DNA of 64,000 nt, from positions 2,170,001 through 2,234,000 of the forward strand of contig NZ_CP070480.1 in assembly GCF_016924835.1 (NCBI RefSeq), written 5' to 3'. Made by a program: the position numbers and the translations under genes. Under the pieces are notes generated by a model that made no database searches, had not been told where the DNA came from, and was given only the letters and a program-made list of their open reading frames with translations. The DNA is from Rothia sp. ZJ932 (lineage in GTDB: Bacteria; Actinomycetota; Actinomycetes; Actinomycetales; Micrococcaceae). Positions 8,020 through 58,855 of the stretch are shown in pieces; the first letter of the stretch is position 1, and each line of letters opens with the position of its first letter.

Positions 8020-9420
8020 ATGCCTGGTTCACAGAGCGAAACAAAGTCTTCTTCAACGCATCATCTTGAGCGTAAGATGAACAGCCGCCACATGATCATG
8101 CTGTCTTTGGGCGGCGTGATTGGCACCGGTCTCTTTTTGAGTTCGGGGTACACCATCAATCAGGCAGGGCCTTTTGGTACGGTACTTGCCTACGGCATGG
8201 GCGCAATCATCGTATACCTGGTGATGATGTGTCTGGGTGAGCTGTCGGTAGCTATGCCGTGGACGGGTTCTTTTCACGTCTACGCCACCCAGTTTTTGGG
8301 ACCGGGCACCGGGTTTACCGTGGCGATTTTGTACTGGCTAACGTGGACGATTGCGTTAGGTTCTGAATTCACGGCCTCGGGCATCATTATGCAGCAGTGG
8401 TTTCCTGACACCCCCGTGTGGGTGTGGAGCGCTCTGTTCATCGTTATTATTTTTGCCCTCAATGCGGTGAGCGTAAAGATTTTCGCTGAAACGGAATCAT
8501 GGCTGGCACTCATTAAAGTAGTTGCGATTATCGCCTTTATTGTGCTGGGTGCCCTGGCGATGTTCGGTGCGATCCCCCTGCAGTCGGGCGAACCTGCACC
8601 CGGCTTCACCCACCTTTTTGAAGATGGACTTTTCCCCAACGGTTTTGGCGCGGTCTTCACGGTGATGTTGGCAGTCAACTTCGCTTTCTCAGGCACCGAA
8701 CTCATTGGCATCGCAGCCGGTGAAGCTGAGAACCCCGAAGAAACCGTACCGCGTGCAATTCGCAGCACCCTCTGGCGTCTCGCCGTCTTCTTCATCGGTG
8801 CCATCATCGTTATGGCGTCCTTGATTCCCTATAAGGAAGCAGGAGTGGACGCCTCCCCCTTCGTTCTCGTCTTCGAGAAAATCGGCATTCCCTTCGCCGC
8901 CGACATCATGAACTTCGTGGTGCTCACCGCCATTTTGTCAGCCGCAAACTCTGGGCTCTACGCGTCCACACGTATGCTCTGGTCACTGTCGAACGAAGGG
9001 ATGATTCCCCAGCGCATCTCGCGCGTCAATAAAGCTGGCGTGCCTTTCTTGGCGATGTGCATTTGCATGGTCGGTGGTCTGTTCTCGCTACTGTCAAGCT
9101 TCATTGCAGCAGACACCGTTTACATGGTGCTGGTGTCTATTTCTGGTCTCGCAGTGGTACTGGTGTGGGTGTCCATTGCCGCCTGCCACATCGTTTTCCG
9201 CAAGCGCTACCTAGCAGAGGGCAAGAAACTTGAAGACCTCAAATACCGCGCCCCCGGCTACCCCTACCTCTCGTGGGTAACCCTAGTTGTTTGCGCGCTC
9301 TCGTGCGTCCTCATCGTCTTCGACCCCAACCAGCGTCCGGCACTGTTCTACACCGTGCCGTTCATTGCCCTGTGCTACCTGGCGCACCGCGTCACGAGTA
9401 AGCGCAAGAAGCACCTGTAA
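8020..9420 (+). CDS. mmuP: S-methylmethionine/amino-acid permease
   Basis: A 466-residue APC-superfamily permease with 12 predicted membrane spans. The first span has the APC motif [14 protein letters not shown], and the stretches [40 protein letters not shown] and [12 protein letters not shown] closely match the MmuP/YkfD group. The divergent mmuM gene supports S-methylmethionine as substrate; related amino acids remain possible. AAGGG stands upstream of the ATG at 8020. A strong terminator follows at 9442. Confidence 0.88.
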
Positions 9421-9490: not shown

Positions 9491-9650
9491 GTCTCTCTCA
9501 CTGTGAACCTGTGCATTAAGGGAAAAAGTTATCCACAGGTGTGTAAAACTCTGTGAATAATTCGAACACCTGTACGCGTGCCCGCCACCACTACGCCCCA
9601 GAACCTGTCATGACGGGGTTCGCTTGCCTCAATAGACCAGGCTACGCGCC

Positions 9651-9706
9651 TGTAATCACAGTGGTGTAGTTATCCACGCTGTGGAAAAAATCTGTGGAAA
9701 GTTTCG
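9651..9706 (+). repeat. 56-bp direct repeat carrying DnaA boxes, copy 1
   Basis: Begins TGTAATCACA and contains TATCCACGCTGTGGAAAA. It matches 9960-10015 with only a few differences. Confidence 0.8.
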
Positions 9707-9887
9707 TTTTTACCCAGTTTCTGGAACCAAAAAGACGGTGTGCATCCACATTTATCCACCGGAGCACTCAAAAATGCAGAGTTTAAGTGGAAAATGTTCA
9801 CAGAGTTATCCACAGATAGTGGAAAACTTGGCTCCGGATACAGAAGGACGCGCCCACCCCCGCGAGATGGATGTATCCGTTGCCCCT

Positions 9888-9912
9888 AAGCCCCTGCAAT
9901 ATCGGGGCTTTT
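9888..9912 (+). terminator. Small terminator-like hairpin inside the DnaA-box region
   Basis: AAGCCCC (9888-9894) pairs with 9904-9910, then TT. It implies that some transcript from the left ends here, or it is the end of a lost gene. Confidence 0.45.
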
Positions 9913-9959
9913 AGTGTCTCTATGACCCTGGGGGCTATCCGGTTTTTTATGCACAGCTA

Positions 9960-10015
9960 TGTAATCACAGCAGTGTAGTTATCCACGCTGTGGAAAACTC
10001 TTGTGGAAAACTTCG
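9960..10015 (+). repeat. 56-bp direct repeat carrying DnaA boxes, copy 2
   Basis: Second copy of the 9651-9706 repeat. It runs into the 3' end of the truncated lipoprotein frame. Confidence 0.8.
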
Positions 10016-10231
10016 CATAGTCTCACCCGTTGCCCCGGTCAGTTTCGCCAAAGCTGCGTCATAGTCGTAGGATGCGGCAAGCGTCCGAGCCTCTTCAAGA
10101 GCGAGCGCTGAGGGGTCTTGGGTTTCGGTAACGGTAGGTGCCGGGGCATCACAGACAGACTGCCCGGTGCTACCGCAACCGGTGAGCGCAAGAGCGCCCA
10201 ATAGAAAGAGAGTGGCGGGAGGCGTGAACAT
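9965..10231 (-). pseudogene. Truncated lipoprotein gene
   Basis: The ATG at 10231 opens a typical lipoprotein: signal peptide ending in ALTGCGS, then a Thr/Ala-rich linker and EEARTLAASYDYDAALAKLTG, which looks like the start of a larger extracytoplasmic domain. After about 72 residues the frame enters the DnaA-box repeat and stops 88 residues in. The last 15 or so residues are encoded by repeat DNA, so the original 3' part seems lost. I cannot name the parent family. No clear ribosome site is visible, supporting a pseudogene. Confidence 0.55.
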
Positions 10232-10557: not shown

Positions 10558-11058
10558 TTAATCTTCGATGACTGATTTTTTCACGGTAATAATCTCGCTG
10601 GGTTTGCCGCCTAATACTGCCTCACCAATTTTTGCGAGCTGGGTTGCCTGGCGCTTGTTGATGCGGTTAAAAATTTGGCGGCGCACTTCTTCAACGTGAC
10701 CGGGCGCAGCTTCCTGTACTTTCTGCAGACCTGCAGGGTGCAGCTCGCAGATGCTGACGCGGCGATCTTTTGACCAAACGGTGCGGCTGACGTAGTCCTG
10801 CTTTTCCAAGCGGGTCACTACACGAGAAAGACGCGGCAGCAGAGTGTTGGTCTGGTGCGCCAACTCAGTCATAGTCAGCCGGTGCTCAGGCGCTTCAGAG
10901 AGCATGGCAAGCACCATGTACTCCACGAAACTCAAATCAGCATCTCGTTCAAGCTGTGCTTCAAGAGAACCGGGCAGGTTGAAGATGACCGAGCTCAAAA
11001 AAAGCCATGCGTCGCGCTCGTCATCATTCAGCCAGGGGGTTTCTTGCTTTGAGCTCAC
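10558..11058 (-). CDS. MarR-family transcriptional regulator
   Basis: A 166-residue MarR-type winged-helix protein. The wHTH lies at about residues 45-115 (FVEYMVLAMLSEAPEHRLTMTELAHQTNTLLPRLSRVVTRLEKQDYVSR), followed by the wing with DRRVSICELHPAGLQKVQEAAPGHVEEVRR, typical of the family. Such dimeric repressors respond to phenolics, oxidants or drugs; the ligand cannot be read. It is divergent from nhaA across 379 bases. That spacing allows control of its own gene or of nhaA, but no operator was identified with confidence. Confidence 0.9.
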   Translation of the reverse strand: MSSKQETPWLNDDERDAWLFLSSVIFNLPGSLEAQLERDADLSFVEYMVLAMLSEAPEHRLTMTELAHQTNTLLPRLSRVVTRLEKQDYVSRTVWSKDRRVSICELHPAGLQKVQEAAPGHVEEVRRQIFNRINKRQATQLAKIGEAVLGGKPSEIITVKKSVIED

Positions 11059-24061: not shown

Positions 24062-24145
24062 TGCGCAAGGGGGGACTTGAACCCCCACGATCTTGCGATC
24101 ACTGGCACCTGAAGCCAGCGCGTCTGCCAATTCCGCCACTTGCGC
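24062..24145 (-). tRNA. tRNA-Leu (CAG anticodon)
   Basis: Read on the minus strand: acceptor stem GCGCAAG pairs with CTTGCGC, D-arm AATTGGCAGACGC, anticodon stem CTGGC/GCCAG enclosing TTCAGGT (anticodon CAG), a long variable arm (GATCGCAAGATC) as in class II tRNAs, and GGGGTTCAAGTCCCC as T-arm. Discriminator A; the CCA end is not encoded. A tRNA-Leu next to fhaA is the arrangement seen in Mycobacterium and relatives. Confidence 0.95.
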
Positions 24146-24448
24146 AAGTGGCTGAGTGTTGATTTCTCAACAAGCAACGAAGACTACTATACACATTTTC
24201 GTACCAACCCCACAAATTAAACTTTATGGAATGCACCACAGAAACCGGTTCGATGGGGACAATTTGGCTATATCACCTAAAATAGAAGTACACGCAGTGT
24301 GAGCGTAGCACCACTGTCGGCTTTCATGTGAGCCTTTTTAACCTGGTTTATAGAGGAACAACTCAGGTTTTCCTCATCTTGGGTTCATGTAAAGCCGGTA
24401 GTCTGGTTCACTCGCGCAAAAGATGTGCCGGTCAGCGAAGGAGGCGTC

Positions 24449-25315
24449 ATGGGTTTCATCAATAAAATCGAACAGGGTTTAGAGAAAGCTGTGCGCTCCA
24501 CTTTCAGCAAAGGCGGTCAGTTTGAGCCTGTAGATATCGCCAACCGCGTCCGCACAGAGATGGATAACCGCGCTTACGCTATTCCCTCAGGACGCACGAT
24601 TGCACCCAATGTTTTTACCATTGAGTTCGCTGCCGACGATTTTCACCGTGTGCAGGATTGGGGTGCTCCACTTGCTGAAGAGCTGTGCGATGTAGCAATC
24701 CGCCATGCGCGTGCCCAAGCGTATTCTTTGCGTGGCTCAGTGCGCGTGACCTTCGTTGTCGGTGATGATTTAGAGCCTGGCGACTTTGTAGTGAACTCAT
24801 CGCAAGAGAAAATCGCTGCCCCCCATCAAGAAACGAGTGCAGCTGCCACCGGCGCCTTTCACCGGCAGGCACGCACACCGAGCGCACCTTCGCAGAATGC
24901 TCGCGGTGAAGCTTCGTTGCCTAGCCGCATTATCAAGCCAGCGGCACCCCATACGTCGCCAGCATACGGCGGACGCTCTGAACCCCACCGCGCAGACCCT
25001 AGTTTCACTCCGCCCAAGCCAGCTGTTCAGGTAGTTCTTGATATCAACGGCGAGCTGTACTCCATTAATTCTTTCCCCGTTGTTTTGGGTCGCGGACGCA
25101 CCGCTGATATCACCGTTGAAGATGCCGGTGTTTCGCGTCGCCACCTAGAAATTGATGAGCGCGACGGCACCTATATTGCCAGCGACTTAGGGTCTACCAA
25201 CGGTAGCCAGCTTGACGGTGCGCCACTTATAGGTCGCCGCGAGATCAGCAACGGCTCTGTCATTTCGATGGGGCGTGCCCGCATTATTTTTCGTCTGATG
25301 GTTCCGAGGAGCTAA
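24449..25315 (+). CDS. fhaA: FhaA: DUF3662 and FHA domain protein
   Basis: A 288-residue FhaA. The N-terminal DUF3662 domain (MGFINKIEQGLEKAVRSTFSKGGQFEPVDIANRVRTEMD) is followed by a low-complexity linker and a C-terminal FHA domain (about 200-288) with phosphothreonine-binding GRGR...SRRHLEI and SDLGSTNGSQLDG. In Mycobacterium FhaA binds phosphorylated MviN and acts with PknB in wall synthesis. GAAGGAGG at 24437 fixes the ATG at 24449. It opens a seven-gene operon with only 4 bases before fhaB. Confidence 0.96.
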   Translation: MGFINKIEQGLEKAVRSTFSKGGQFEPVDIANRVRTEMDNRAYAIPSGRTIAPNVFTIEFAADDFHRVQDWGAPLAEELCDVAIRHARAQAYSLRGSVRVTFVVGDDLEPGDFVVNSSQEKIAAPHQETSAAATGAFHRQARTPSAPSQNARGEASLPSRIIKPAAPHTSPAYGGRSEPHRADPSFTPPKPAVQVVLDINGELYSINSFPVVLGRGRTADITVEDAGVSRRHLEIDERDGTYIASDLGSTNGSQLDGAPLIGRREISNGSVISMGRARIIFRLMVPRS

Positions 25316-25319
25316 CACT

Positions 25320-25811
25320 ATGGCATCTGAAATTACCGTCACTTTGTTGCGCTTCGCATTTTTAGCTTTGCTGTGGCTTTTTGTCTTTATGGTGCTCGCG
25401 GCTGCCCGCCGCGATCTCGGTATTGGTCGCAACTTGCGTGCCGCACGGACGCCCGAGGTAGCTCCCAGCGCCAGCGTAGCACCTGCGTCCGACCCTACGC
25501 CGGTTGCACCGCCACCTGCCCGCGCTACCCAGCTCACTATCATTGATGGTGCCCAGGCTGGCGCCGTGATGCGATTGGGGGACTCACCCATTACTATTGG
25601 TCGCGCCGACGATATTGAAGTGGCACTGCAAGATGATTACGCGTCGGGTCATCACGCGCGTCTTTTCCCGCAGGGTTCGCGCTGGTTCCTTGAAGATTTG
25701 GGGTCAACCAATGGCACTTTTGTGGGCGACACCCGCCTGACGCGAGCAACCGCCATTGATATTGGCACCGACTTCCGCGTTGGTCACACGACGATGCGGT
25801 TGAAGGCATAA
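25320..25811 (+). CDS. fhaB: FhaB (FipA): membrane-anchored FHA domain protein
   Basis: A 163-residue protein with one N-terminal membrane span (LLRFAFLALLWLFVFMVLAAARR), an Ala/Pro-rich linker and an FHA domain (about 70-160) containing TIGRADD, SGHHARLF and EDLGSTNGTFVGD. FipA/FhaB reads threonine phosphorylation made by PknA/PknB and links it to septum and wall growth under stress. Second gene of the operon; 6 bases separate it from pstP. Confidence 0.95.
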   Translation: MASEITVTLLRFAFLALLWLFVFMVLAAARRDLGIGRNLRAARTPEVAPSASVAPASDPTPVAPPPARATQLTIIDGAQAGAVMRLGDSPITIGRADDIEVALQDDYASGHHARLFPQGSRWFLEDLGSTNGTFVGDTRLTRATAIDIGTDFRVGHTTMRLKA

Positions 25812-25817
25812 GACTCT

Positions 25818-27515
25818 ATGAATATTGCCTTTCGATTCGCGGCACGCTCAGATGTGGGTATGGTGCGCTCCAAAAACGATGACTCTGCGTACGCTGGTCA
25901 CTACCTAGCTATCGTTGCTGATGGCATGGGTGGTCACGTGGGCGGTGACGTTGCGTCAGCCACCACTGTTCTTGATCTTACCCCGCTTGATCGCACCGGT
26001 TATTCGGGGTCTGCCGGCATCTATCTGGCTGATGAGATTCAAACAGCCAATATGATTATGAATGAGCTGGTAAGCCTCAACCCTGCCCTCGGTGGTATGG
26101 GTACCACCTGCACGGCTCTACTGATTGATGGCGGACGCATTGAGTTAGCTCATATTGGTGATTCTCGCGCGTACCGTCTGCGCGATGGCAACTTTGAGCA
26201 GATTACTACCGATCACACTTTTGTGCAGCGCCTACTCAGCGAGGGGCGCATCACCCGCGAAGAAGCAGAAAATCACCCCCACAAAAACGTGATTATGCGC
26301 GTTTTGGGTGACGTGGATGCTTCCCCCGAGCTTGAACTTCAAACCTTGGACGCGCAGGTTGGCGAAAAGTGGCTTCTTAGCTCAGACGGTCTTGATAACT
26401 GCGTCAGCTTAGAAGAAATTGAGGCGGTACTGCGTTCTACCAGTGACCTCAAGCAGATTGTCGACACTCTCACTGACCTCACCCTTCAGCGCGGAGCGCC
26501 CGATAATGTCACTCTGGTGGCGTTGCAGGTGATTGCTGAGGACACGCTGTCGCAGGCAATTACTGCCCCACAGCCTATTATTCCTGTTCGGAAATATGAC
26601 GATTCGGGAACACATGTGGGTGTTCACCCTGTTCCTGCTGAAGATATCATCGATGTCGATGCCGCAGAACAGGCGTCCGAATACCACCACAAAATTCCCT
26701 GGCGACGACGCCTGCCCAGTGATGCCAAACTACGCAACGCCCTGCGCCACGGAAAATGGCGTGGCGAGTCTTTCTCTGACGGCGTGCTGAACGTGATGAC
26801 CCAAACCGCGGGCGTTGATGAACGCCCGGTCAACGCAGAGGAATCATCGGCGTCCGTCCTGCGCACCGAGCTGAAAGAACGCCCGCACCAGCTGGTGGGG
26901 TCTGCGGCTAACGCCACCCAGACCGGGAAGATTCCCGCGGTTGCTGAACGTACTGTGCAGCAGCGCGCCACTCTGGCGCAGACTGCGACTCTCCAGTCGC
27001 AGGAAAAGACCGCTGAGCTACCCGAGGATTTTCGCGCCCTGCTTGAGGGTGAAGACAATGAAGACCCTCGCCCTCGCTGGGCGGTGCGAATTTTCGCCGC
27101 CATATTGACCTTGGCGGTGCTGGCAGCAACCGTTTGGAGCGGTCTGAGCTGGATCTCAAACCGCTATTATGTAGGCGTCAACAACAATAAGGTTGCTATT
27201 TACAGCGGCGTCCCCCAGTCGGTGGGTCCCATTCATCTGTACGAGCTGCTCGATGAAACTTCTATTGAGGTAGATACTCTGCCGGAGTACTCGCAGTCGC
27301 TACTGCACAACACCATTACGGCTACTGACCGTCAGGACGCCGAGCGTATTGTTGATAACCTCAATCAGCAGGTCATCCGTCGCGCGCCTACCCCTGGCAC
27401 CGTTACCACCGTGATGCCTGAACCCAGCGCGTCCGCACCAAGCGAACCTAAGGCACCTGAAACTCAGACTACCGATGCAGGGGTTCGGTCCGAGACAACG
27501 CAGGGAGGTCAGTAA
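25818..27515 (+). CDS. pstP: PP2C-type Ser/Thr phosphatase PstP
   Basis: A 565-residue membrane phosphatase that reverses PknA/PknB phosphorylation. The PP2C domain (residues 1-240) has SDVGMVRSKNDDS, VADGMGGHVGGD, GMGTTCTALLI, LAHIGDSRAYRLRDG and APDNVTLV, with metal-binding Asp residues intact. A variable linker precedes the single span (about residues 420-443, VRIFAAILTLAVLAATVWSG), and the extracellular tail holds YYVGVNNNKVAIYSGV as in other PstP proteins. The stop and the rodA start share one base (TAATG). Confidence 0.96.
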   Translation: MNIAFRFAARSDVGMVRSKNDDSAYAGHYLAIVADGMGGHVGGDVASATTVLDLTPLDRTGYSGSAGIYLADEIQTANMIMNELVSLNPALGGMGTTCTALLIDGGRIELAHIGDSRAYRLRDGNFEQITTDHTFVQRLLSEGRITREEAENHPHKNVIMRVLGDVDASPELELQTLDAQVGEKWLLSSDGLDNCVSLEEIEAVLRSTSDLKQIVDTLTDLTLQRGAPDNVTLVALQVIAEDTLSQAITAPQPIIPVRKYDDSGTHVGVHPVPAEDIIDVDAAEQASEYHHKIPWRRRLPSDAKLRNALRHGKWRGESFSDGVLNVMTQTAGVDERPVNAEESSASVLRTELKERPHQLVGSAANATQTGKIPAVAERTVQQRATLAQTATLQSQEKTAELPEDFRALLEGEDNEDPRPRWAVRIFAAILTLAVLAATVWSGLSWISNRYYVGVNNNKVAIYSGVPQSVGPIHLYELLDETSIEVDTLPEYSQSLLHNTITATDRQDAERIVDNLNQQVIRRAPTPGTVTTVMPEPSASAPSEPKAPETQTTDAGVRSETTQGGQ

Positions 27516-28960
27516 TGTCTACACAAGCAGTACCGCGTAGTCGCGCTATCACCGGGTTTGTGCTGAGCGCTTTTGCTGTTGCTTTGTGCCCGCTGGCGAT
27601 GTGGCTTATTGATGCTGAGCTGATTGCTGCCGGTGATACCCGCTGGCGCACGGCTACCATCACCCTGGCGGTGGGCACCCTCGTTATCTATCTTGTTTCT
27701 TTCTTCCGCGCGCGTTACGCTGATCCGCTCATTTTGCCCCTCGTGGTGGCATTGAACAGCGTTGGATTGGCAATGATTTATCGCATTGATTTGACTACCA
27801 GTGCGGACGCGGGTGAGTCGCAGGTGATGTGGACGGGTGTGGCGATGGGCGCTGCAATGCTTGTGCTAGTGGCTTTGAAAAACCACAGGGTTCTGCGTAA
27901 GGTCACGTATATTTCTTTAGCAGTATCTATTGTGCTGCTCTTGCTTCCGCTTATTCCCCGCCTTGGTCTTGAAATTAATGGTGCGCGCATCTGGGTGAGC
28001 GTGGCGGGTAGAACCTTCCAGCCCGGTGAGATTGCCAAGATCACCCTGGCTATATTCTTTGCTGGCTATCTTTCGACGCACCGTGATTTGATTCTGCTTG
28101 CTGGTAAGCGAGTTGGTCCCGTCCGTCTGCCCCGTTTCAAAGATTTGGCACCTATGTTCATCGCGTGGCTGGTGAGCATCGGTGTTCTGGTGTTCCAGCG
28201 CGATCTTGGCTCGGCAATTCTCTTCTTCGGCTTGTTCATGGCGATGCTGTTCCTGGCAACCGGGCAGATTACCTGGATTGCTCTGGGTTTGTTGTTCGTT
28301 GCTGCCGGCGGTTTTCTCGCCTACAACTTCATCTCCCATGTGCATTACCGCATCTCGTCGTGGATTCACGCTTTTGACCCCGAGGTCTATAACCAGCCGG
28401 TGGGTGGCTCTGGGCAGATTGTGCAGGGTGTTTTTGGTCTTGCCTCTGGCGGTCTATTCGGACGCGGCTGGGGCAGCGGACGTCCTGACCTGGTTGCCTA
28501 CTCCAATTCAGACATGATTGTTACCGCCCTCGGTGAAGAACTGGGTCTTCTGGGTCTGGGCGCGATTTTGATGGTCTTCCTCCTGCTGGTATCAAGGGGT
28601 TTCCGCGCGGCACTCGGTGTACGCGATGCTTTCGGCAAGCTTCTGGCGGCTGGGCTTTCAGCTGTTATTGTTCTTCAGCTCTTCGTCGTTATCGGCGGGG
28701 TTACCCGTCTTATTCCGCTGACCGGTTTGACGACCCCTTTCATGTCGGCAGGCGGTTCTTCTCTTCTTGCCAACTGGGTGATTGCGGCTTTATTGATTGC
28801 TATTTCGCACTCGGCGAGGGCACCGCAGGTGGTTGATGCTTTCTCAGATCAGGACGCTGTGGCGGGCTCCATTGCCGCCTCCGAAGGTCATGAGGGAGCA
28901 ACTTCTGTGATTTCTAGAATTTCAGACGAACAGGCAAACGCTGCAGGAGGTGGCAGATAA
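27515..28960 (+). CDS. rodA: SEDS glycosyltransferase RodA
   Basis: A 481-residue SEDS-family membrane protein with 10 or more spans, which polymerises lipid II into glycan strands for side-wall growth. Signature stretches are QPGEIAKITLAIFFAGYLS, FQRDLGSAILFFGLFMAMLFLATG, PVGGSGQIVQGVFGLASGGLFGRGWG and LPLTGLTTPFMSAGGSSLLANW. It sits directly before pbpA, its partner transpeptidase (stop at 28960, next ATG at 28961). A cytoplasmic C-tail of about 40 residues follows the last span. Confidence 0.96.
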   Translation: MSTQAVPRSRAITGFVLSAFAVALCPLAMWLIDAELIAAGDTRWRTATITLAVGTLVIYLVSFFRARYADPLILPLVVALNSVGLAMIYRIDLTTSADAGESQVMWTGVAMGAAMLVLVALKNHRVLRKVTYISLAVSIVLLLLPLIPRLGLEINGARIWVSVAGRTFQPGEIAKITLAIFFAGYLSTHRDLILLAGKRVGPVRLPRFKDLAPMFIAWLVSIGVLVFQRDLGSAILFFGLFMAMLFLATGQITWIALGLLFVAAGGFLAYNFISHVHYRISSWIHAFDPEVYNQPVGGSGQIVQGVFGLASGGLFGRGWGSGRPDLVAYSNSDMIVTALGEELGLLGLGAILMVFLLLVSRGFRAALGVRDAFGKLLAAGLSAVIVLQLFVVIGGVTRLIPLTGLTTPFMSAGGSSLLANWVIAALLIAISHSARAPQVVDAFSDQDAVAGSIAASEGHEGATSVISRISDEQANAAGGGR

Positions 28961-30400
28961 ATGAATAAGGCTATTCGCAGACTCTGGATTGTGTCTGCCT
29001 GCGTCTTTGCCCTCCTGCTGGGAGCGCTTACTTACATTCAGTTTTTTGAGTCAAAGAACCTCATGGCGAATCAGTGGAACAGTCGCCAGCTCTATGATTC
29101 CTACGGGGCACAGCGCGGTTCTATTGTGGTCGGCGGCGTTGAGATCGCTTCTTCGGTGCCTTCTGATGATGGTTATAACTACCAGCGAGTGTATGCCCAG
29201 CCAGAAATGTATGCGAGTCTTACCGGCTACTTCTCTTCTGTGTACGGCACCACCGGCATTGAGTCTGCCATGGATAAAGAGCTTTCAGGCACCGCTGATG
29301 AGCAGTTCTATGATCGCATTTCGCAGATGTTCTCGGGTAGCAGTGCCCAGGGGGCAACTGTTGAGCTAACCATCGACCCTGTCTTGCAAAAAACTGCATG
29401 GAACCTTTTGCGGGGTCACAAGGGAGCCATCGTGGCGCTCAACCCCAAGACCGGTGAAATCTTGGCAATGGCGTCCTCACCTTCTTACGACCCCAACGAC
29501 CTGTCTTCGCATAACAGCGCTGAAGTCATTGAAAACTATGCGGCACTGAATCAAGACCCCAGTAACCCCCTGCATAACCGCGCTATTGCCGGTAACACCT
29601 ATGCACCGGGTTCCACCTTCAAAATTATTGACGCTGTGGCAGCCCTGGAATCGGGCAAGTACACGGCAGAGTCTGTGATTGATAACCCCCAGAACCTGCC
29701 CCTGCCCAACACAAATATCAGCCTGCCCAACTACGTCAACGGTCAGTGTTCAACACGCGCCCAAGCCACTATCGAGTGGGCTTTGGCGCAATCGTGTAAC
29801 ACCCCCTTCGCTCAGATTGCAATGGCTCTAGGGCAGGATAAGATAGCTCAGACGGCGCAGAATTTTGGGTACGGTCAAAAACTCAGCATTCCCCTTTCGG
29901 TTTCGCAGTCTGTCTTTCCCCAAAATATGTCTGATGACCAGTTGGCTTTGGCATCAATTGGTCAGTACGACGTAAAAACTACTCCTCTGCAGGTCGCTAT
30001 GATGTCAGCTGCTATTGCTAATGAAGGCAAGCAGATGAAGCCCAACATGATAGCGTCTGTGAAATCTCATAATCTAAACTCACTGTATGAATTTTCCAGT
30101 GAGCAATTAAGAACTTCTACTAGCCCAGAAATTGCTGCGCAGGTTAAGGATTGGATGGTGAACGACGTGGAAAACGGCATTGCCTCGGGTGCCGCCGTCA
30201 ATGGCGTTGAGGTAGCTGGTAAGACCGGTACCGCCGAGATTGGTGATACCGGTTCTAACAACGCGTGGTTCACGGGTTTTGCTCCGGCGGATGACCCTCA
30301 GATCGCTGTTGCAGTAGTTTATGAAGATGTAGATGCAGTTACTGGTGCTTCGCTCACCTCTCCGGCGGGCAAAGCTCTTTTTGAGGCGGTGTTGAACTAG
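28961..30400 (+). CDS. pbpA: Class B penicillin-binding protein PbpA
   Basis: A 479-residue monofunctional transpeptidase that cross-links peptidoglycan, partner of RodA. One N-terminal span ([21 protein letters not shown]) anchors it outside the membrane. Active-site motifs are present: STFK with catalytic Ser (about residue 219), SCN (about 277) and KTGT (about 421). It starts immediately after rodA and its TAG stop overlaps the GTG start of pknA, so translational coupling is likely. Confidence 0.96.
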
Positions 30401-32208
30401 TGAGACCCTCTGTTGATACGACGCTCGGTGGTCGTTACGACCTGACTGAGCGCATTGCCATTGGCGGAATGGGTGAGGTCTGGAAGGCTCGCGATAAGGT
30501 TCTTGGTCGCATTGTGGCGGTTAAGATTCTGAAAGAGGAATATACGGGTGATCCGGGTTTCCTCGAGCGTTTCCGCGCCGAAGCGCGTCACACTGCCCTG
30601 CTAAACCACCCCGGTGTAGCGAACGTCTTTGACTACGGTGAAGAGGACGGCTCTGCTTATCTGGTGATGGAGCTGGTGCCGGGTGAGCCGCTATCTAACA
30701 TCATTGAGAAAGAGAAGCGTCTTGCTTCAGACCGCATTCTCAATATCATTGCCCAGACTGCTCGCGCTCTGGCGGCTGCTCACGCGCAGGGTCTGGTTCA
30801 CCGAGATGTGAAACCAGGCAACCTCATTATCACTCCGGACGAGCGCGTTAAAGTTACTGATTTCGGTATCGCTCGTTTGGCTGATCAGGTTCCTTTAACT
30901 GCGACAGGTCAGGTGATGGGTACTGCCCAGTACCTCGCGCCCGAACAGGCGACGGGACAGCAGGCAACCGGTCACTCCGATATGTACTCTTTGGGCATTA
31001 TTGGCTACGAGTGTTTGGCGGGTAAGCGTCCTTTCACCGGTGAGTCACAGATTGCTATTGCGCTGGCTCAGGTAAACGACCCGCCACCCCCGCTACCGCA
31101 GGATGTTCCGGCGCCCGCTGCTGCGCTCATTATGTGCCTGCTGTCCAAGGATCCCCAGCAGCGTCCTGAGACTGCTACTGCTTTGGCTTCTGCGGTGGAT
31201 GCGATTCGCCGCCGCGATGTACCGGCAGCCATTAAAGCTGTGCCTTCCTTGGTAGCTTTCTTGCCGCAGGGTGCTGAGACAAGCGCTACCGAGGTAATGC
31301 CACCGGCAACTAAGGTTGCGCCTACTGCGCGTTTTGGTTCCGGTGCTCGTTTTGCACCGAAGCCGACCACTGCGGCACTGCCCGAGGTGGGCGTATCCGG
31401 TTCAGCTGCTGCGCCTGCGGCATCTGCACCTCGACCCGCGCCGGTCAAAAAGTCTTCACTCTGGGGTTGGGTATCGCTGTTCTTGGCGGTCATTTTGTTG
31501 GGTCTATTGGGTGGGTTCTTCTTGCTCAATAACAAGGATGATGATTCATCACCCGCGCAGAGTTCAAGCACAGCCCCGACCCCGTCGGGCACCGTCTCAA
31601 CGGTAAGCTCAGCACCTGCAACTGAAGAACCAGCTCCCAACCAAAACGAGGCGCAGCGAGTTTCAATCCGCAGTAGTGACTACACCGGCAGGGCACTTGA
31701 TGATGTCATCAATGACCTCACGGCGCTAGGTTTTTCAACCAAAACCGAGGGAATCGTTTCAGATGAGGAGAATGACACCGTCCTCTCTATCACCCCGACG
31801 GGTTCACTCAAGTCGGGCTCAACGATTACCGTCACCTACTCCACCGACCCTGAAAGCGTCGTGCTGCCCAACGACCTTGAGGGACGTAACGCTGATGAGG
31901 TCATTAGCGAAATTACAGACATGGGCATTAACGTCCAGTTGCATATGCGGCAGACAAACAGTGCAGACCCTAACACTGTGCTTCGCACCTCGCCTTCTTC
32001 AGGCTCACGCGTTGAAATTGGTAGTAGTGTAGATGTTTACGTGGCGCAGACACCTGCAACTGCTTCGGCATCTGCGACTCCCAGTGCGCCTGCAGCTCCT
32101 GCTGGAACCAAAAACTCCGGTGCAGCAGCAGACCCTAGTGCTTCAGCGAACGCCCCTGGGAGCGTTGCGACTGAGCCTTCTTCAGCCCCTTCAGAGAACA
32201 ACGGATAA
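30400..32208 (+). CDS. pknA: Ser/Thr protein kinase PknA with two PASTA-like repeats
   Basis: A 602-residue membrane kinase. The kinase domain (about 10-270) has [31 protein letters not shown] (about 134), DFGIARL and APEQATG. A span at about 353-377 is followed by two PASTA-like modules (about 420-480 and 486-548) and a Ser/Ala/Pro-rich tail. Mycobacterial PknA lacks PASTA repeats, so this version can sense wall fragments or lipid II directly. GTG start, overlapping the pbpA stop by one base. Confidence 0.94.
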
Positions 32209-32211
32209 AGC

Positions 32212-34293
32212 ATGGAACTGAATATTCCCGACACTGTTGACCAGCGTTATAGCGTTGGTGAGGTTATTGGTAGCGGCGCTATGGCTACTGTGTATGCGGC
32301 TACCGATAATCGGTTGGGCCGCCAGGTGGCGTTGAAGGTTTTACGCCCAGAGATTGCCCGTGATGAGGCTGCGCGTGTGCGTTTTGCCCGTGAGGGTGAA
32401 TCAGTTGCCTCACTGAATCATGCTGGCATCGTGGCTGTCTACGATACTGGTTCTGTTTCTGTTGAAGATTCAGGTGAGCAGGTTGAGGTTCCTTACCTGG
32501 TCATGGAGCTGGTACACGGTAAGTCTTTGCGCGATGTTTTACGCGGTGGAGGGGTCTCTGTTGCGGATGCCGCTGTTTACGGTGTGCAGTTGATGGATGC
32601 CCTAGATTGTTCCCACAGTGCCGGGGTGATTCACCGCGATGTGAAGCCCGGTAATTTGATGGTGCTTGAGGCAAGCGATGATGATCGCAAGCAGGGCATT
32701 CCCGGTCGTATTAAGGTTATGGACTTCGGTATCGCTCGCGCGGCGATGGAGGGTGAGCCACTGACTCAGGCAAATATGGTGCTGGGCACCCCTCGCTATA
32801 TCTCACCGGAGCACGCTAGTGGCGCTGCTGTTGACGAGCGAAGCGATGTTTATTCTGCTGCCGTGGTGCTGTACGAGATGGTTGCTGGGCGCGCACCGTT
32901 TACCGGTGATGTTGCCAGTGATTTGTTGTCTAAGCATTTAAGCGAGGATCCGAAGGCTCCGAGTTTCTACGCTAAGCGTGAGGTTCCCGTTGAGCTAGAT
33001 CGCGTCATTTTGAAGGCTTTGAGTAAGGATCCCGCGAGCCGTTATCAGAGCGCTGCGGAGTTCCGCAATGCTTTGGTGCATGCTACGCATTCTTTGTTGC
33101 CCACGTCTATTCTTGAAAATCTTGATAACGCTCCGGCAACAACCGCTTTTACCCCTGTTGAGACTCCTATACCTACCAGCAAGCCGGGTGTCGGCGCTGC
33201 TATGGGTGCCGGGGCGGTAGCTGCTTCCAGCGCTGCAACCCCTGCTAGCGCGTCCTCAGCTACTCCTCCCACCGGCGAGGTAGCAGGTTTAGGCAGTATC
33301 TTCACGGACGCGCAGGATGAGTACTCCCGCGAAGAAGTATTGGAGTACGGACGCGATGAGGAGCTGCTGCGCAAGAGCCGCCGCAGGCGCGCGTGGGGCA
33401 GGTTCCTCTCTGGTCTGATTATTTTCTTGCTGGCCGCTTCGTGTATTGGCATTGTGTTGTACTATAACAACAAGCTGAACGAGGTTCCCACCGTTGCTGT
33501 TCCTTCGGTGACCGGGCAGATGCAGGCGGAGGCTGAGAATACTCTGCGTAATGCTGGTTTGCAGGTGGAGCACATCGAGGATTTCTCGGATAACGTTCCC
33601 AGAGGTCAGGCAATCGGCACTGTCCCCGTGGTGGGTACCGCTGTTGATGAAAACTCTATGGTGACTTTGAAAGTTTCAAAGGGTAACGAGCAGATTAAGG
33701 TTCCCGGTGATTTGGCGGGTCAGTCTGAGGCTTATGTTCGTGAGGCTTTGACTAAGGCTAACCTTGTTCCCGGTAGGGTTTCGACGGTAAATGACCCCAC
33801 TATTCCTGCTGGTTTGGTGGTGGCTGTTGAGCCGGGTGAGGGTGAGTCTGTGAAGGCTGAGTCCACCGTGAACATTGTGCTGTCAACCGGTAAGGTTGAG
33901 GTTCCTGATTTGGTGGGTCTGACTCGCGATCAGGCGATTGCTGCCTTGACTGGTCCTGATACTCTACTGAGCACCAATATTGAGAATGTGCAGACAACCT
34001 CGGCACCGGCTGGTACCGTGATGTCGCAGAGCGCGGCACCGGGTACGTCCATTGAGCAGGGTTCCACGGTGACTATTCGTATTGCGAATGCTCCTACTCC
34101 TACCGCAGCTGCGGCACCGGCTACGCCCAGCGCACCGGCGGCTTCTAATGCTCCGAGTGCAGCACCTAGCGCACCGGCTAATCCTAATGCACCGGCAGGC
34201 AATGCGCCTCCGGCTCCGAGCGCGACTGCTTCAGCTGCTAATCGTGCGCCTGCTGCGCCCAGCACGGCGGCAACCGGTGGCGCTAACCGCTAG
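32212..34293 (+). CDS. pknB: Ser/Thr protein kinase PknB with three PASTA domains
   Basis: A 693-residue receptor kinase. The kinase domain shows [33 protein letters not shown] (about 140), DFGIARAA and SPEHASG. A membrane span lies at about 398-419. Outside, three PASTA repeats run through VAVPSVTG, IKVPGDLAG and VEVPDLVG starts (about 425-625), then a long Ala/Pro repeat tail that may cross the wall. PknB phosphorylates FhaA, MviN, CrgA-type targets and others in Mycobacterium. Last gene of the operon, 3 bases after pknA, ended by a strong terminator. Confidence 0.96.
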   Translation: MELNIPDTVDQRYSVGEVIGSGAMATVYAATDNRLGRQVALKVLRPEIARDEAARVRFAREGESVASLNHAGIVAVYDTGSVSVEDSGEQVEVPYLVMELVHGKSLRDVLRGGGVSVADAAVYGVQLMDALDCSHSAGVIHRDVKPGNLMVLEASDDDRKQGIPGRIKVMDFGIARAAMEGEPLTQANMVLGTPRYISPEHASGAAVDERSDVYSAAVVLYEMVAGRAPFTGDVASDLLSKHLSEDPKAPSFYAKREVPVELDRVILKALSKDPASRYQSAAEFRNALVHATHSLLPTSILENLDNAPATTAFTPVETPIPTSKPGVGAAMGAGAVAASSAATPASASSATPPTGEVAGLGSIFTDAQDEYSREEVLEYGRDEELLRKSRRRRAWGRFLSGLIIFLLAASCIGIVLYYNNKLNEVPTVAVPSVTGQMQAEAENTLRNAGLQVEHIEDFSDNVPRGQAIGTVPVVGTAVDENSMVTLKVSKGNEQIKVPGDLAGQSEAYVREALTKANLVPGRVSTVNDPTIPAGLVVAVEPGEGESVKAESTVNIVLSTGKVEVPDLVGLTRDQAIAALTGPDTLLSTNIENVQTTSAPAGTVMSQSAAPGTSIEQGSTVTIRIANAPTPTAAAAPATPSAPAASNAPSAAPSAPANPNAPAGNAPPAPSATASAANRAPAAPSTAATGGANR

Positions 34294-43966: not shown

Positions 43967-44109
43967 CTTTGTAGGGGCTTTACTGCATCTTATGATCCTG
44001 AATTTTACTGCACGGGGGGTGGTGCAAGCAGTTAGGGATTTGTTACTAGGTTCTTAAACGAGAAAAAGTCCCTACCGTCAAACGATAAAGACTAAATCCC
44101 AAACAAAAA

Positions 44110-44227
44110 ACCCGCGGTGACCTACTCTCCCACACCCTAACAAGTGCAGTACCATCAGCGCAAAAAGCCTTAACTACTGGGTTCGGAATGGAACCAGGTA
44201 TTTTACTCTCGCCAAAACCACGGAAAA
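44110..44227 (-). rRNA. rrf: 5S ribosomal RNA
   Basis: On the minus strand TTCCATTCCGAACCCAGTAG, GCGCTGATGGTACTGCA and GTGGGAGAGTAGGTCACCGC match 5S rRNA; ends were set by pairing of the terminal CCGTGG and CCGCGG. Ends may be off by a few bases. Confidence 0.93.
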
Positions 44228-44369
44228 CCAAACAACACACACCCCACCAACAAACAAGAGGCGGGGCACACGCCGGGGTTATTACCCAAAAACCATACAG
44301 TGGACACGTCAACAACAAAAACAATACTCACATACTCATGCCACCACAAAAAGTGATAAACAGTAAGCC

Positions 44370-49371
<5,002 letters not shown>

Positions 49372-56089: not shown

Positions 56090-58735
56090 CTAGAAGTCGT
56101 CTCCACCGGAGTAGGAATCATGAGTCATATTCGCAAAACGCGAGTAGTGGCCCTGGAATGCCACCGCAATAGTCTTAGTCGGGCCGTTACGGTGCTTCGC
56201 CACAATCACATCAGCCTCACCAGCGCGCGGAGACTCCTTGTCATACACATCATCGCGGTGCAAGAGGACAACCATATCCGCGTCCTGCTCAATGCTGTTA
56301 TGAACAGTAATACCATTAGCGATGAAGTTATGGTGCCCCAGAACGGTAGCGTCAAAGACCTCCTCCTCACCGCAGTACTCAATCTCAACAATCGAATCCC
56401 AGAACAGGTCATTCACCGCCACCATATCAAGCTCAGCAGAATCAAGAAGAGTGGCTACCTGAGACAGTCTCGAGGGCGCAGGTGAGTTCTTGTAGTAGGC
56501 AGACCCACAATACTGAGAGACCATTTGGAACCCACGAGGAGTCATACCTTTTTCAGTAAGAATTCGTTTGACATCATCCCACACCTGGGAAGGGGCCGTG
56601 TCGACATTCGTATTGGACTTACACCCTTCGCTTTCGAGAACATCCAAAAGTCGTTTGCACTGTTCAGCACGATTGCCAAACACAGAAATCTCACGCAAAA
56701 AACGCAGTTGTTCATCGCGTCCTGAAATATCTAGAGAGTAACCCGGGCGATACTCGCCCTTCAATGTAGTTTTGCGAACACGAGAATTGATGCCAAAACG
56801 CAACAGGAGAATAGAAAGCTGATCCACTAGCTCACGTGAAGTTGAGGAATAGTAGATACGCCCTGTTCGACCATTCTTGTTCACAGTTACAGAACCATCA
56901 GTTGCCCACAGGTGCTGAATAAACAGAGCAATCTGACGTTTAGGCAGGGCATTTACTGACTCAGGGATAAATTTTTCCCATGACCGCAGACCAAAAAGAC
57001 CCACTTCATCCAGCCAAGAAGCCAAAGGATTACGTTTGCCGTGGGTAAGTCGATGGGGCGCAGGCAGACGCAAAGAAACACAACGGGCAGCTTCGTGCTC
57101 ATCACGCACAGCTGTAATACCGAACTGCTTGAGGGCAGCGTCAGTCATTACCTTCAAATTATTTTCATCAATAGACGCATACCGTATGGGCTGATGTTTT
57201 ACAGCCGAACCATCGCCCAACATATGAGCCAGCAGGATGACCTGCTCATCGCTCCACTTCACGCGCTCTGAGGGGCCGTTTACATGGCGGGACACGCCAA
57301 TGCGCTCGCCGACTTCTAGCTCGCCCAGCCCCTTCCACCCGCGGAAGGTAAAGAAGGGATGGTTAGCGGTTGCGCGCAGGGTCTTGCCGGACGCCGTAGT
57401 GAGGCGGTAGACCGGCTTTACACCGGTTGAGAAAACGTGGGTGAGGTGACGTTCCACGAAACGCATATCGTCACCTAGAGACCACACAGGTACATCCTGA
57501 GCTCCGGCTGCGTAAAGCTCGCCCATAGTGGTTTCCGCGCCGGTGTCTGCCCTGAGAATACGAGTATCCGCGGTGAGGCAGCCCGATTCGCGAAGATCTG
57601 ACACCATGGGTTTCTTGTCGGTGCGCTGCTCCGAACCACGGTTCAGCTGCGAAAGCGCGATGAGAGGAACCTCCAGTTCCTTCGCCATCAACTTCAGCGC
57701 ACGGGAAAACTCCGAGACCTCCTGCTGACGAGATTCCACCTTCTTACCCGAGCTCATCAGCTGCAGGTAGTCCAGCACAATCAGCTGCAAGTTATTGCGC
57801 TGCTTGAGGCGGCGTGCCTTCGCGCGAATCTCCATCAGCGTCATATTCGGCGAGTCATCAATAAACAGGGGCGCGGCGTCCATCTTACCCATCGCCGTTG
57901 CCACCTTCGCCCACTGGGAATCATCCAGCGTACCCTTACGCAAATCAGATAAGTTCAAAGACGCCTCAGCCGAAAGTACACGCATAGCAATCTCATTACG
58001 GCTCATTTCCAACGAGAAAAAGACCGTTGCCATATTGTGCTTAATCGCAGCGGAACGAGCGATATCCAGAGCGAACGTACTTTTTCCCATGGCCGGCCTC
58101 GCCGCAATAACAATCATCTGACCTGCCTGCAAACCGGCGGTCAGCTCGTCGAGCTCGATGAAACCGGTGGGGACGCCGTGAATGCCGTCGGGGCGGGCAC
58201 CGTTAGCCTCGATTTCCTCAACCGTGGCATTCATAATCTCACCCAGCGGCGCATAGTCCTCGCTCTCGCGAGTATCAGCCACCTGGTAAATCTCAGCCTG
58301 CGCCTGATTTACCAAAGCATCGACCTCACCATCGCTCTCATAACCCAACTGCACAATCTTCGTACCAGCACTCACCAGACGGCGCAGCACGGCGCGCTCG
58401 CGCACAATCTCAGCATAAAACCCAGCATTTGCAGCAGTAGGCACCGAAGAAATCAAAGAGTGCAAATAGGGCACACCACCCACTCGCTCAAGCTCCCCGC
58501 GCTTCTTCAACTCATCAGCCACCGTCACCGCGTCCGCAGGCTCACCGTGACCGTACAGCGAAATCACAGCCTCATAAATACTCTCATGGGCAGGCTTATA
58601 AAAATCAGTACCGCGCAGCACCTCAACAACATCAGCAATCGCGTCCTTCGACAGCATCATGCCGCCCAGCACCGACTGCTCAGCCGCGTCATTATGCGGG
58701 GGTGTTCGAACAAACTCAGACTGATTTTCAGACAC
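56090..58735 (-). CDS. dnaB: Replicative DNA helicase DnaB with in-frame intein
   Basis: An 881-residue precursor. DnaB parts: N-terminal domain (PPHNDAAEQSVLGGMMLS...), linker, and the RecA-like ATPase with Walker A ARPAMGKST, VLDYLQLMSS and IALSQLNRGSEQR. After DLRESG an intein of 428 residues is inserted; the sequence resumes SIEQDADMVVLLHRDD. The mature helicase unwinds DNA at the fork as a hexamer. The GTG at 58735 lies 5 bases after AAGGTGG; an in-frame ATG at 58783 would add 16 residues with no ribosome site. Divergent from the small membrane gene at 58856. Confidence 0.96.
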   Translation of the reverse strand: MSENQSEFVRTPPHNDAAEQSVLGGMMLSKDAIADVVEVLRGTDFYKPAHESIYEAVISLYGHGEPADAVTVADELKKRGELERVGGVPYLHSLISSVPTAANAGFYAEIVRERAVLRRLVSAGTKIVQLGYESDGEVDALVNQAQAEIYQVADTRESEDYAPLGEIMNATVEEIEANGARPDGIHGVPTGFIELDELTAGLQAGQMIVIAARPAMGKSTFALDIARSAAIKHNMATVFFSLEMSRNEIAMRVLSAEASLNLSDLRKGTLDDSQWAKVATAMGKMDAAPLFIDDSPNMTLMEIRAKARRLKQRNNLQLIVLDYLQLMSSGKKVESRQQEVSEFSRALKLMAKELEVPLIALSQLNRGSEQRTDKKPMVSDLRESGCLTADTRILRADTGAETTMGELYAAGAQDVPVWSLGDDMRFVERHLTHVFSTGVKPVYRLTTASGKTLRATANHPFFTFRGWKGLGELEVGERIGVSRHVNGPSERVKWSDEQVILLAHMLGDGSAVKHQPIRYASIDENNLKVMTDAALKQFGITAVRDEHEAARCVSLRLPAPHRLTHGKRNPLASWLDEVGLFGLRSWEKFIPESVNALPKRQIALFIQHLWATDGSVTVNKNGRTGRIYYSSTSRELVDQLSILLLRFGINSRVRKTTLKGEYRPGYSLDISGRDEQLRFLREISVFGNRAEQCKRLLDVLESEGCKSNTNVDTAPSQVWDDVKRILTEKGMTPRGFQMVSQYCGSAYYKNSPAPSRLSQVATLLDSAELDMVAVNDLFWDSIVEIEYCGEEEVFDATVLGHHNFIANGITVHNSIEQDADMVVLLHRDDVYDKESPRAGEADVIVAKHRNGPTKTIAVAFQGHYSRFANMTHDSYSGGDDF
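56297..57580 (-). other. DnaB intein with LAGLIDADG homing endonuclease
   Basis: 428 residues from Cys (CLTADTRIL) to the end NGITVHN, followed by Ser+1. Block B is TTASGKTLRATANHPFFTF with the Thr-x-x-His; the two LAGLIDADG-like motifs are ILLAHMLGDGSA and ALFIQHLWATDGSV, with acidic residues kept; the final blocks are EVFDATVLGHHNFIANG and ITVHN. All splice-site residues (Cys1, penultimate His, Asn, Ser+1) are present, so splicing and possibly homing activity are likely. It sits in the conserved ATPase loop used by other DnaB inteins. Confidence 0.94.
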
Positions 58736-58855
58736 GAAAGCCACCTTGGATAGGGAAAAGAACCGGTTTCTATTATCCCCCATTCTTCAGCATCGCATGG
58801 AGTCTAGGGGGTTTATACTGAGCATAAGTAGTTCATCGCACCCAAGGAAGAAAAG

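Follow-up and report, generated by a model that had tools for sequence, protein, structure and literature searches.

A genus-wide, four-module cluster of DnaA boxes linked to dnaA in Rothia and its candidate role in DnaA titration

The box cluster and its surroundings

The stretch of DNA analysed here (the window) is 64,000 nucleotides long and corresponds to C1:2170001-2234000 of a 2,261,372-bp contig from a genome of Rothia (Micrococcaceae), labelled G000 below. Within it, an amino-acid permease gene (8020-9420, forward strand) forms the left flank of a dense cluster of DnaA boxes (9510-10010, no strand assigned). On the right flank is the gene of a MarR-family regulator (10558-11058, reverse strand), which serves as the syntenic landmark of the cluster across Rothia. 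The cluster holds eight exact TTWTNCACA boxes (9529, 9806 and 9947 on the forward strand; 9540, 9552, 9680, 9989 and 10002 on the reverse) and eight boxes with one mismatch (9670, 9708, 9752 and 9979 forward; 9510, 9693, 9786 and 9818 reverse), arranged in four modules. The first-pass annotation had described a dense cluster of six plus six boxes, in an intergenic gap with no dnaA nearby. The cluster is real and had been understated, since a recount gives eight plus eight. The gap is intergenic as described, except that the 3' end of a short lipoprotein-like ORF (MFTPPATLFLLGALALTGCGS...; 9965-10231, reverse strand) overlaps the last module, M4, and dnaA indeed lies outside the window, at C1:418-2016. 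Partial homologues of the lipoprotein-like ORF occur in some Rothia. Further right in the window (56090-58783, reverse strand), the gene of the replicative helicase DnaB is interrupted by an intein, which has a LAGLIDADG domain.

When the 64-kb window was shuffled with its dinucleotides preserved (200 shuffles), the densest 500 bp contained at most two exact boxes, compared with the eight observed, and a maximum of two was likewise reached when the local 830 bp were shuffled 2000 times. The comparison with other DNA of the genome, which had been suggested as a check, agrees with this: the density of TTWTNCACA was taken from 691 kb (~30% of the genome), and outside the cluster no 500 bp of this sample has more than two exact boxes. 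The next-best windows, with two each, are the dnaA-dnaN spacer and a site at +24.5 kb, and the densest sampled places after the cluster are those upstream and downstream of dnaA. The whole-genome count, which covers TTWTCCACA only, found 56 sites, five of them within the cluster and at most two in every other 500 bp.

Each module combines a convergent box pair (10-11 bp) with a tandem box (12-13 bp), a single box facing two in tandem. With > for a forward and < for a reverse box, module M1 (9529-9560, forward) reads > (9529), < at 11 bp (9540) and < at a further 12 bp (9552), and has a TTCGAA motif (9561-9566, no strand assigned) immediately 3' of it. Modules M2 and M4 are contained in the two copies of a 56-nt direct repeat (9651-9706 and 9960-10015, both forward; 38.6 and 40.8 bits with model R1), which are 86% identical in this window. 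Both modules, read forward, begin with box I, > TTATCCACG (9670 in M2, 9979 in M4), followed at 10 bp by box II, < (9680 and 9989), and at 13 bp by box III, < (9693 and 10002). Module M3 (9786-9826, forward) consists of < (9786), > ATGTTCACA (9794), > TTATCCACA (9806) and < (9818), and a single exact box, TTATGCACA (9947-9955, forward), stands between M3 and M4. The long form of M3, TTAAGTGGATATTGTTCACAGAGTTATCCACAGGTG, has full-length matches in Rothia only; the module was considered as a tag for the distal clusters of other genera and dropped, its non-Rothia matches covering only the box part.

Conservation in Rothia and the wider family

An orthologue of the MarR regulator is found in all 35 Rothia genomes. 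The box cluster is present in 34 of the 35, and in 33 it lies 0.2-13 kb from MarR. The most similar MarR neighbour is that of Rothia terrae (84-85% identity), and in the R. terrae genome G034 the cluster is on a different contig from MarR. No box cluster was found within 10 kb of MarR in R. santali (G022, 73% GC). The best 500 bp contain 4-7 exact boxes per Rothia genome, and 2-3 in some high-GC species. Relatives identified by a protein search are almost all Rothia, the genus and family labels of their genomes being those of the search tool. A close orthologue of the permease (at least 62% identity) exists in only four other Rothia genomes.

Given this range of distances from MarR, and a permease that is mostly absent, it is the cluster itself that is kept and not one promoter. 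Control by DnaA of the transcription of a neighbour (the MarR regulator, the permease or the lipoprotein) would suit the intergenic position of the cluster, and DnaA is a transcription factor in other bacteria (PMC8203912). We nevertheless consider such control very unlikely, as MarR is found at varying distances across species and the other neighbours change, but the cluster stays; a promoter of MarR or of the permease was rejected as a candidate on these grounds. Nor are DnaA-regulated promoters known to need as many as four modules over 500 bp.

The four-module layout is fixed across the genus, although the genes next to it differ and it is found on either side of dnaA. Nearly all species have up to four modules in the same order: M1, > 11 < 12 <; M2, > 10/11 < 13 <; M3, > 12 > 11 < (the reverse layout); and M4, > 10 < 13 <. 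The R. nasimurium group includes some degenerate M4 modules, and the whole element is reversed in the R. mucilaginosa group. Across 28 Rothia clusters, 81 convergent pairs have a spacing of 10 or 11 bp (31 and 50, respectively) and 80 tandem pairs one of 12 or 13 bp (29 and 51); a preferred spacing of divergent pairs was also looked for in these 28 clusters and none was seen. As a separate observation, the divergent pair TGTGGATAA-N17-TTATCCACA occurs at three places in G000 (C1:349097-349131, 1023841-1023875 and 1672834-1672868); the two boxes are separated by exactly 17 bp, the interiors are unrelated, and the reversed control pattern occurs nowhere.

The TTCGAA motif is enriched about tenfold over background in Rothia clusters, and most copies lie between M1 and M2. 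In relatives the repeats in this spacer are often ~21 bp apart, some species being without TTCGAA. Both these repeats and the motif at 9561-9566 are a possible site for a second DNA-binding protein. A AATCACACCGGTGT-like sequence sometimes follows the repeats.

At the level of the family, the T triplet model, built from sequence only, matches 241 of 248 sampled Micrococcaceae genomes, representing 31 of 32 genera, and 44 of 149 genomes across the order. Where dnaA was also located, the non-Rothia matches are mostly 14-20 kb downstream of it, with exceptions at about 10, 26-27, 64 and 110 kb, and in the genomes examined the family triplet adjoins ppiA-rhomboid genes. One non-Rothia Micrococcaceae genus shares the four-module order; the match in genome G119, beside a rhomboid gene, has this same order (> 13 > 10 <, > 11 <, > 13 > 10 <, > 11 <). 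A reduced second cluster is also present in G000 to the right of dnaA (C1:24493-24657), between rhomboid and PepSY-domain lipoprotein genes and preceded by a cyclophilin gene, at a site that corresponds to the place of the cluster in most of the mapped non-Rothia genomes of the family. In three further Rothia genomes (G014, G015 and G027) the MarR-linked cluster is accompanied by a second one, of two modules, which lies 17-20 kb downstream of dnaA. We infer that the element would be ancestral near dnaA and that its fullest copy in Rothia is the one distant from dnaA. A search for literature on Rothia oriC or on Micrococcaceae box clusters found nothing on topic, which does not in itself prove that none exists.

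Position relative to dnaA and the replication origin

In G000, dnaA lies ~82 kb to the right of the cluster round the circle. Among the 11 Rothia genomes with both on one contig, the cluster is 54-242 kb from dnaA: 54 kb in G015, 55 in G014, 59 in G006, 64 in G001, 78 in G028, 82 in G000, 84 in G005, 115 in G007, 133 in G003, 151 in G012 and 242 in G025, distances spanning contig ends presupposing that the contigs are circular. The cluster is upstream of dnaA, except in G007 and G012, where the side is flipped. A limited distance kept on either side of dnaA would fit a site near the origin that serves to organise or segregate the chromosome, with DnaA in an architectural role, and the TTCGAA repeats hint at a further DNA-binding partner. 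No specific segregation motif was seen at the cluster, however, and with position alone speaking for it we regard such a site as highly improbable.

The region of dnaA keeps boxes of its own, with eight upstream of dnaA and six in the dnaA-dnaN spacer at up to one mismatch. A reading frame resembling ribosomal protein L34 (rpmH), as judged by eye, stands beside dnaA on the side opposite the dnaN spacer. As dnaA and its box-bearing dnaA/dnaN region are 82 kb away, the cluster is not the standard origin; the first-pass annotation had expected that origin to the right of the window, where dnaA is in fact located.

The same annotation had left room for a second or relocated origin at the cluster, for which the evidence is mostly adverse. 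Boxes at the cluster do outnumber those of the dnaA region, and the GC skew of G000 is too weak, whether taken raw or after strand correction at fourfold sites, for the origin to be placed (replichore term 0.02 against noise of ~0.1), with a strand-corrected fit near dnaA that prefers -90 kb by a small margin. The congener G025, in which the cluster is furthest from dnaA, was therefore used in its stead. Here both the minimum of the cumulative skew and the strand-corrected breakpoint that fits best fall 0-80 kb right of dnaA, the skew fit at the cluster being clearly worse than near dnaA, which speaks against a relocated origin in the genus. The rRNA operon of the window (44109-49370, reverse strand) is co-directional with a fork from dnaA and opposed to one from the cluster. 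Maximum AT content per 40 bp is 0.70 at the cluster versus 0.72 in the dnaA-dnaN spacer, and in most species the spacer is the more AT-rich, though only slightly. A scan for DnaA-trio-like runs found none at the cluster; as it found none at dnaA either, it does not discriminate between the two. With the canonical region retaining its own boxes, and with a cluster that does not adjoin dnaA/dnaN and, in G025, does not lie at the turn of the GC skew, a relocated origin is not supported, and a second, rarely used one is most improbable.

A block of genes at 24062-34293 of the window encodes tRNA-Leu, FhaA, an FHA protein, a PP2C phosphatase, FtsW/RodA, PbpA and two PASTA kinases, and lies to the left of dnaA, ~57-67 kb away. 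The fhaA-PASTA-kinase block is usually downstream of dnaA in actinobacteria, and its place to the left of dnaA would suggest an inversion about the origin.

Candidate roles and comparison with known systems

Judging from sequence and synteny, the cluster is probably a non-origin, dnaA-linked DnaA-assembly locus that would titrate DnaA after its own early replication, and what it most likely controls is the moment at which chromosome copying begins. The idea of a DnaA titration or recharging locus, raised in the first-pass annotation, accords with the genus-wide box order, the spacing and the linkage to dnaA. DnaA is predicted to bind the cluster cooperatively, the convergent pair and the tandem box setting DnaA molecules about one helical turn apart. 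As no more than about 2-8% of the chromosome separates the cluster from the origin, the cluster would be duplicated early, soon after initiation; the doubled cluster would then bind, and perhaps inactivate, DnaA, the level of free DnaA would fall and re-initiation would be delayed. Against titration, a pure titration sink would not need so elaborate a convergent order. Many Rothia also have one triplet of the same topology in the region upstream of dnaA, which suggests that the triplet is a general DnaA-assembly unit, and taken alone it is no sign of titration.

A second function that may be considered for the triplets is recharging, as at the DARS loci of E. coli: they would join ADP-DnaA head to head, with release of ADP and regeneration of ATP-DnaA. 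In the core of DARS, box I is opposite to boxes II and III and the contact is head-to-head (PMC5742627, PMC8682772). The Rothia triplet shares this three-box topology, with box I opposing tandem II and III. DARS1 and DARS2 both measure > -14- < -12- <, and the II-III spacing of 12 bp compares well with the 12-13 bp of Rothia. Box I departs from consensus at its last base in DARS1 (TTATCCACT) and DARS2 (TTATTCACC), and many T modules of Rothia likewise deviate there (TTATCCACG, TTTTCCACC); box I of the R. mucilaginosa group, however, is TTCTCCACA, so this parallel is not general. The TTCGAA repeats that lie between M1 and M2 might be the mark of a protein standing in for IHF or Fis as an accessory factor. 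On the other hand, Actinobacteria are not known to have orthologues of IHF or Fis. The I-II spacing is 10-11 bp in Rothia and not 14, which amounts to another helical phase, and for this reason the element is not filed as a DARS. There is one core per DARS whereas the Rothia cluster has four triplets, and the identical topology recurs upstream of dnaA, in the oriC region of many Rothia. Recharging of the DARS kind is, on balance, unlikely.

A broader proposal, which seems to us doubtful, is that the Micrococcaceae carry a dedicated element of DARS-topology triplets that reactivates or inactivates DnaA, fullest in Rothia at a site far from dnaA and reduced there at the ancestral site near dnaA. 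If real, such an element would be, to our knowledge, the first nucleotide-switch locus described beyond the Proteobacteria, and its TTCGAA repeats may be read by a partner protein specific to the lineage. B. subtilis is without datA and DARS, according to a 2026 review (PMC13220808). The cluster bears on the question of whether chromosomal loci control DnaA in bacteria other than Proteobacteria, be it by titration or by nucleotide switching. It is a compact, non-coding element of strictly conserved geometry, present across an entire genus of oral and environmental bacteria, and has a related element in the family at large. Its exact sequences and spacings can now be tested, and the near (14-20 kb) and far (54-242 kb) positions offer a natural comparison.

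Among known systems, the triplet of Rothia oriC shares the topology, as in R. amarae (>TTTTCCACC -10- <TTATACACA -13- <TTATCCACA). The distal cluster differs in having four modules, in lying away from dnaA/dnaN and in being without the TTATTAACA-containing spacer. The datA locus of E. coli, which promotes ATP hydrolysis, is likewise a non-coding DnaA-box locus away from oriC, and its negative control of initiation is what is predicted for the Rothia cluster. The minimal unit of datA consists of boxes 7, 2 and 3 and an IHF site (PMC5742627); the box arrangement in Rothia is different, with about three times as many boxes as datA.

Okumura et al. (2012) reportedly described extra-origin DnaA-box clusters (DBCs) in Bacillus subtilis, and a DnaA-box cluster of Streptomyces coelicolor is said to have been described by Smulczyk-Krawczyszyn et al. 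(2006). These are like the Rothia cluster in having dense boxes outside oriC and near the origin in Gram-positive bacteria. In Rothia, too, box density outside oriC is far above the genome background, and the position near the origin is conserved (in the 11 genomes above). The B. subtilis and S. coelicolor clusters are proposed to bind free DnaA and are described as repressing untimely initiation (PMC5742627, PMC5295017, PMC5010248, PMC4585315). Going by the descriptions in reviews, the Rothia cluster is set apart from them as one element with a fixed, strand-ordered layout of four modules, present genus-wide and related to an element of the family.
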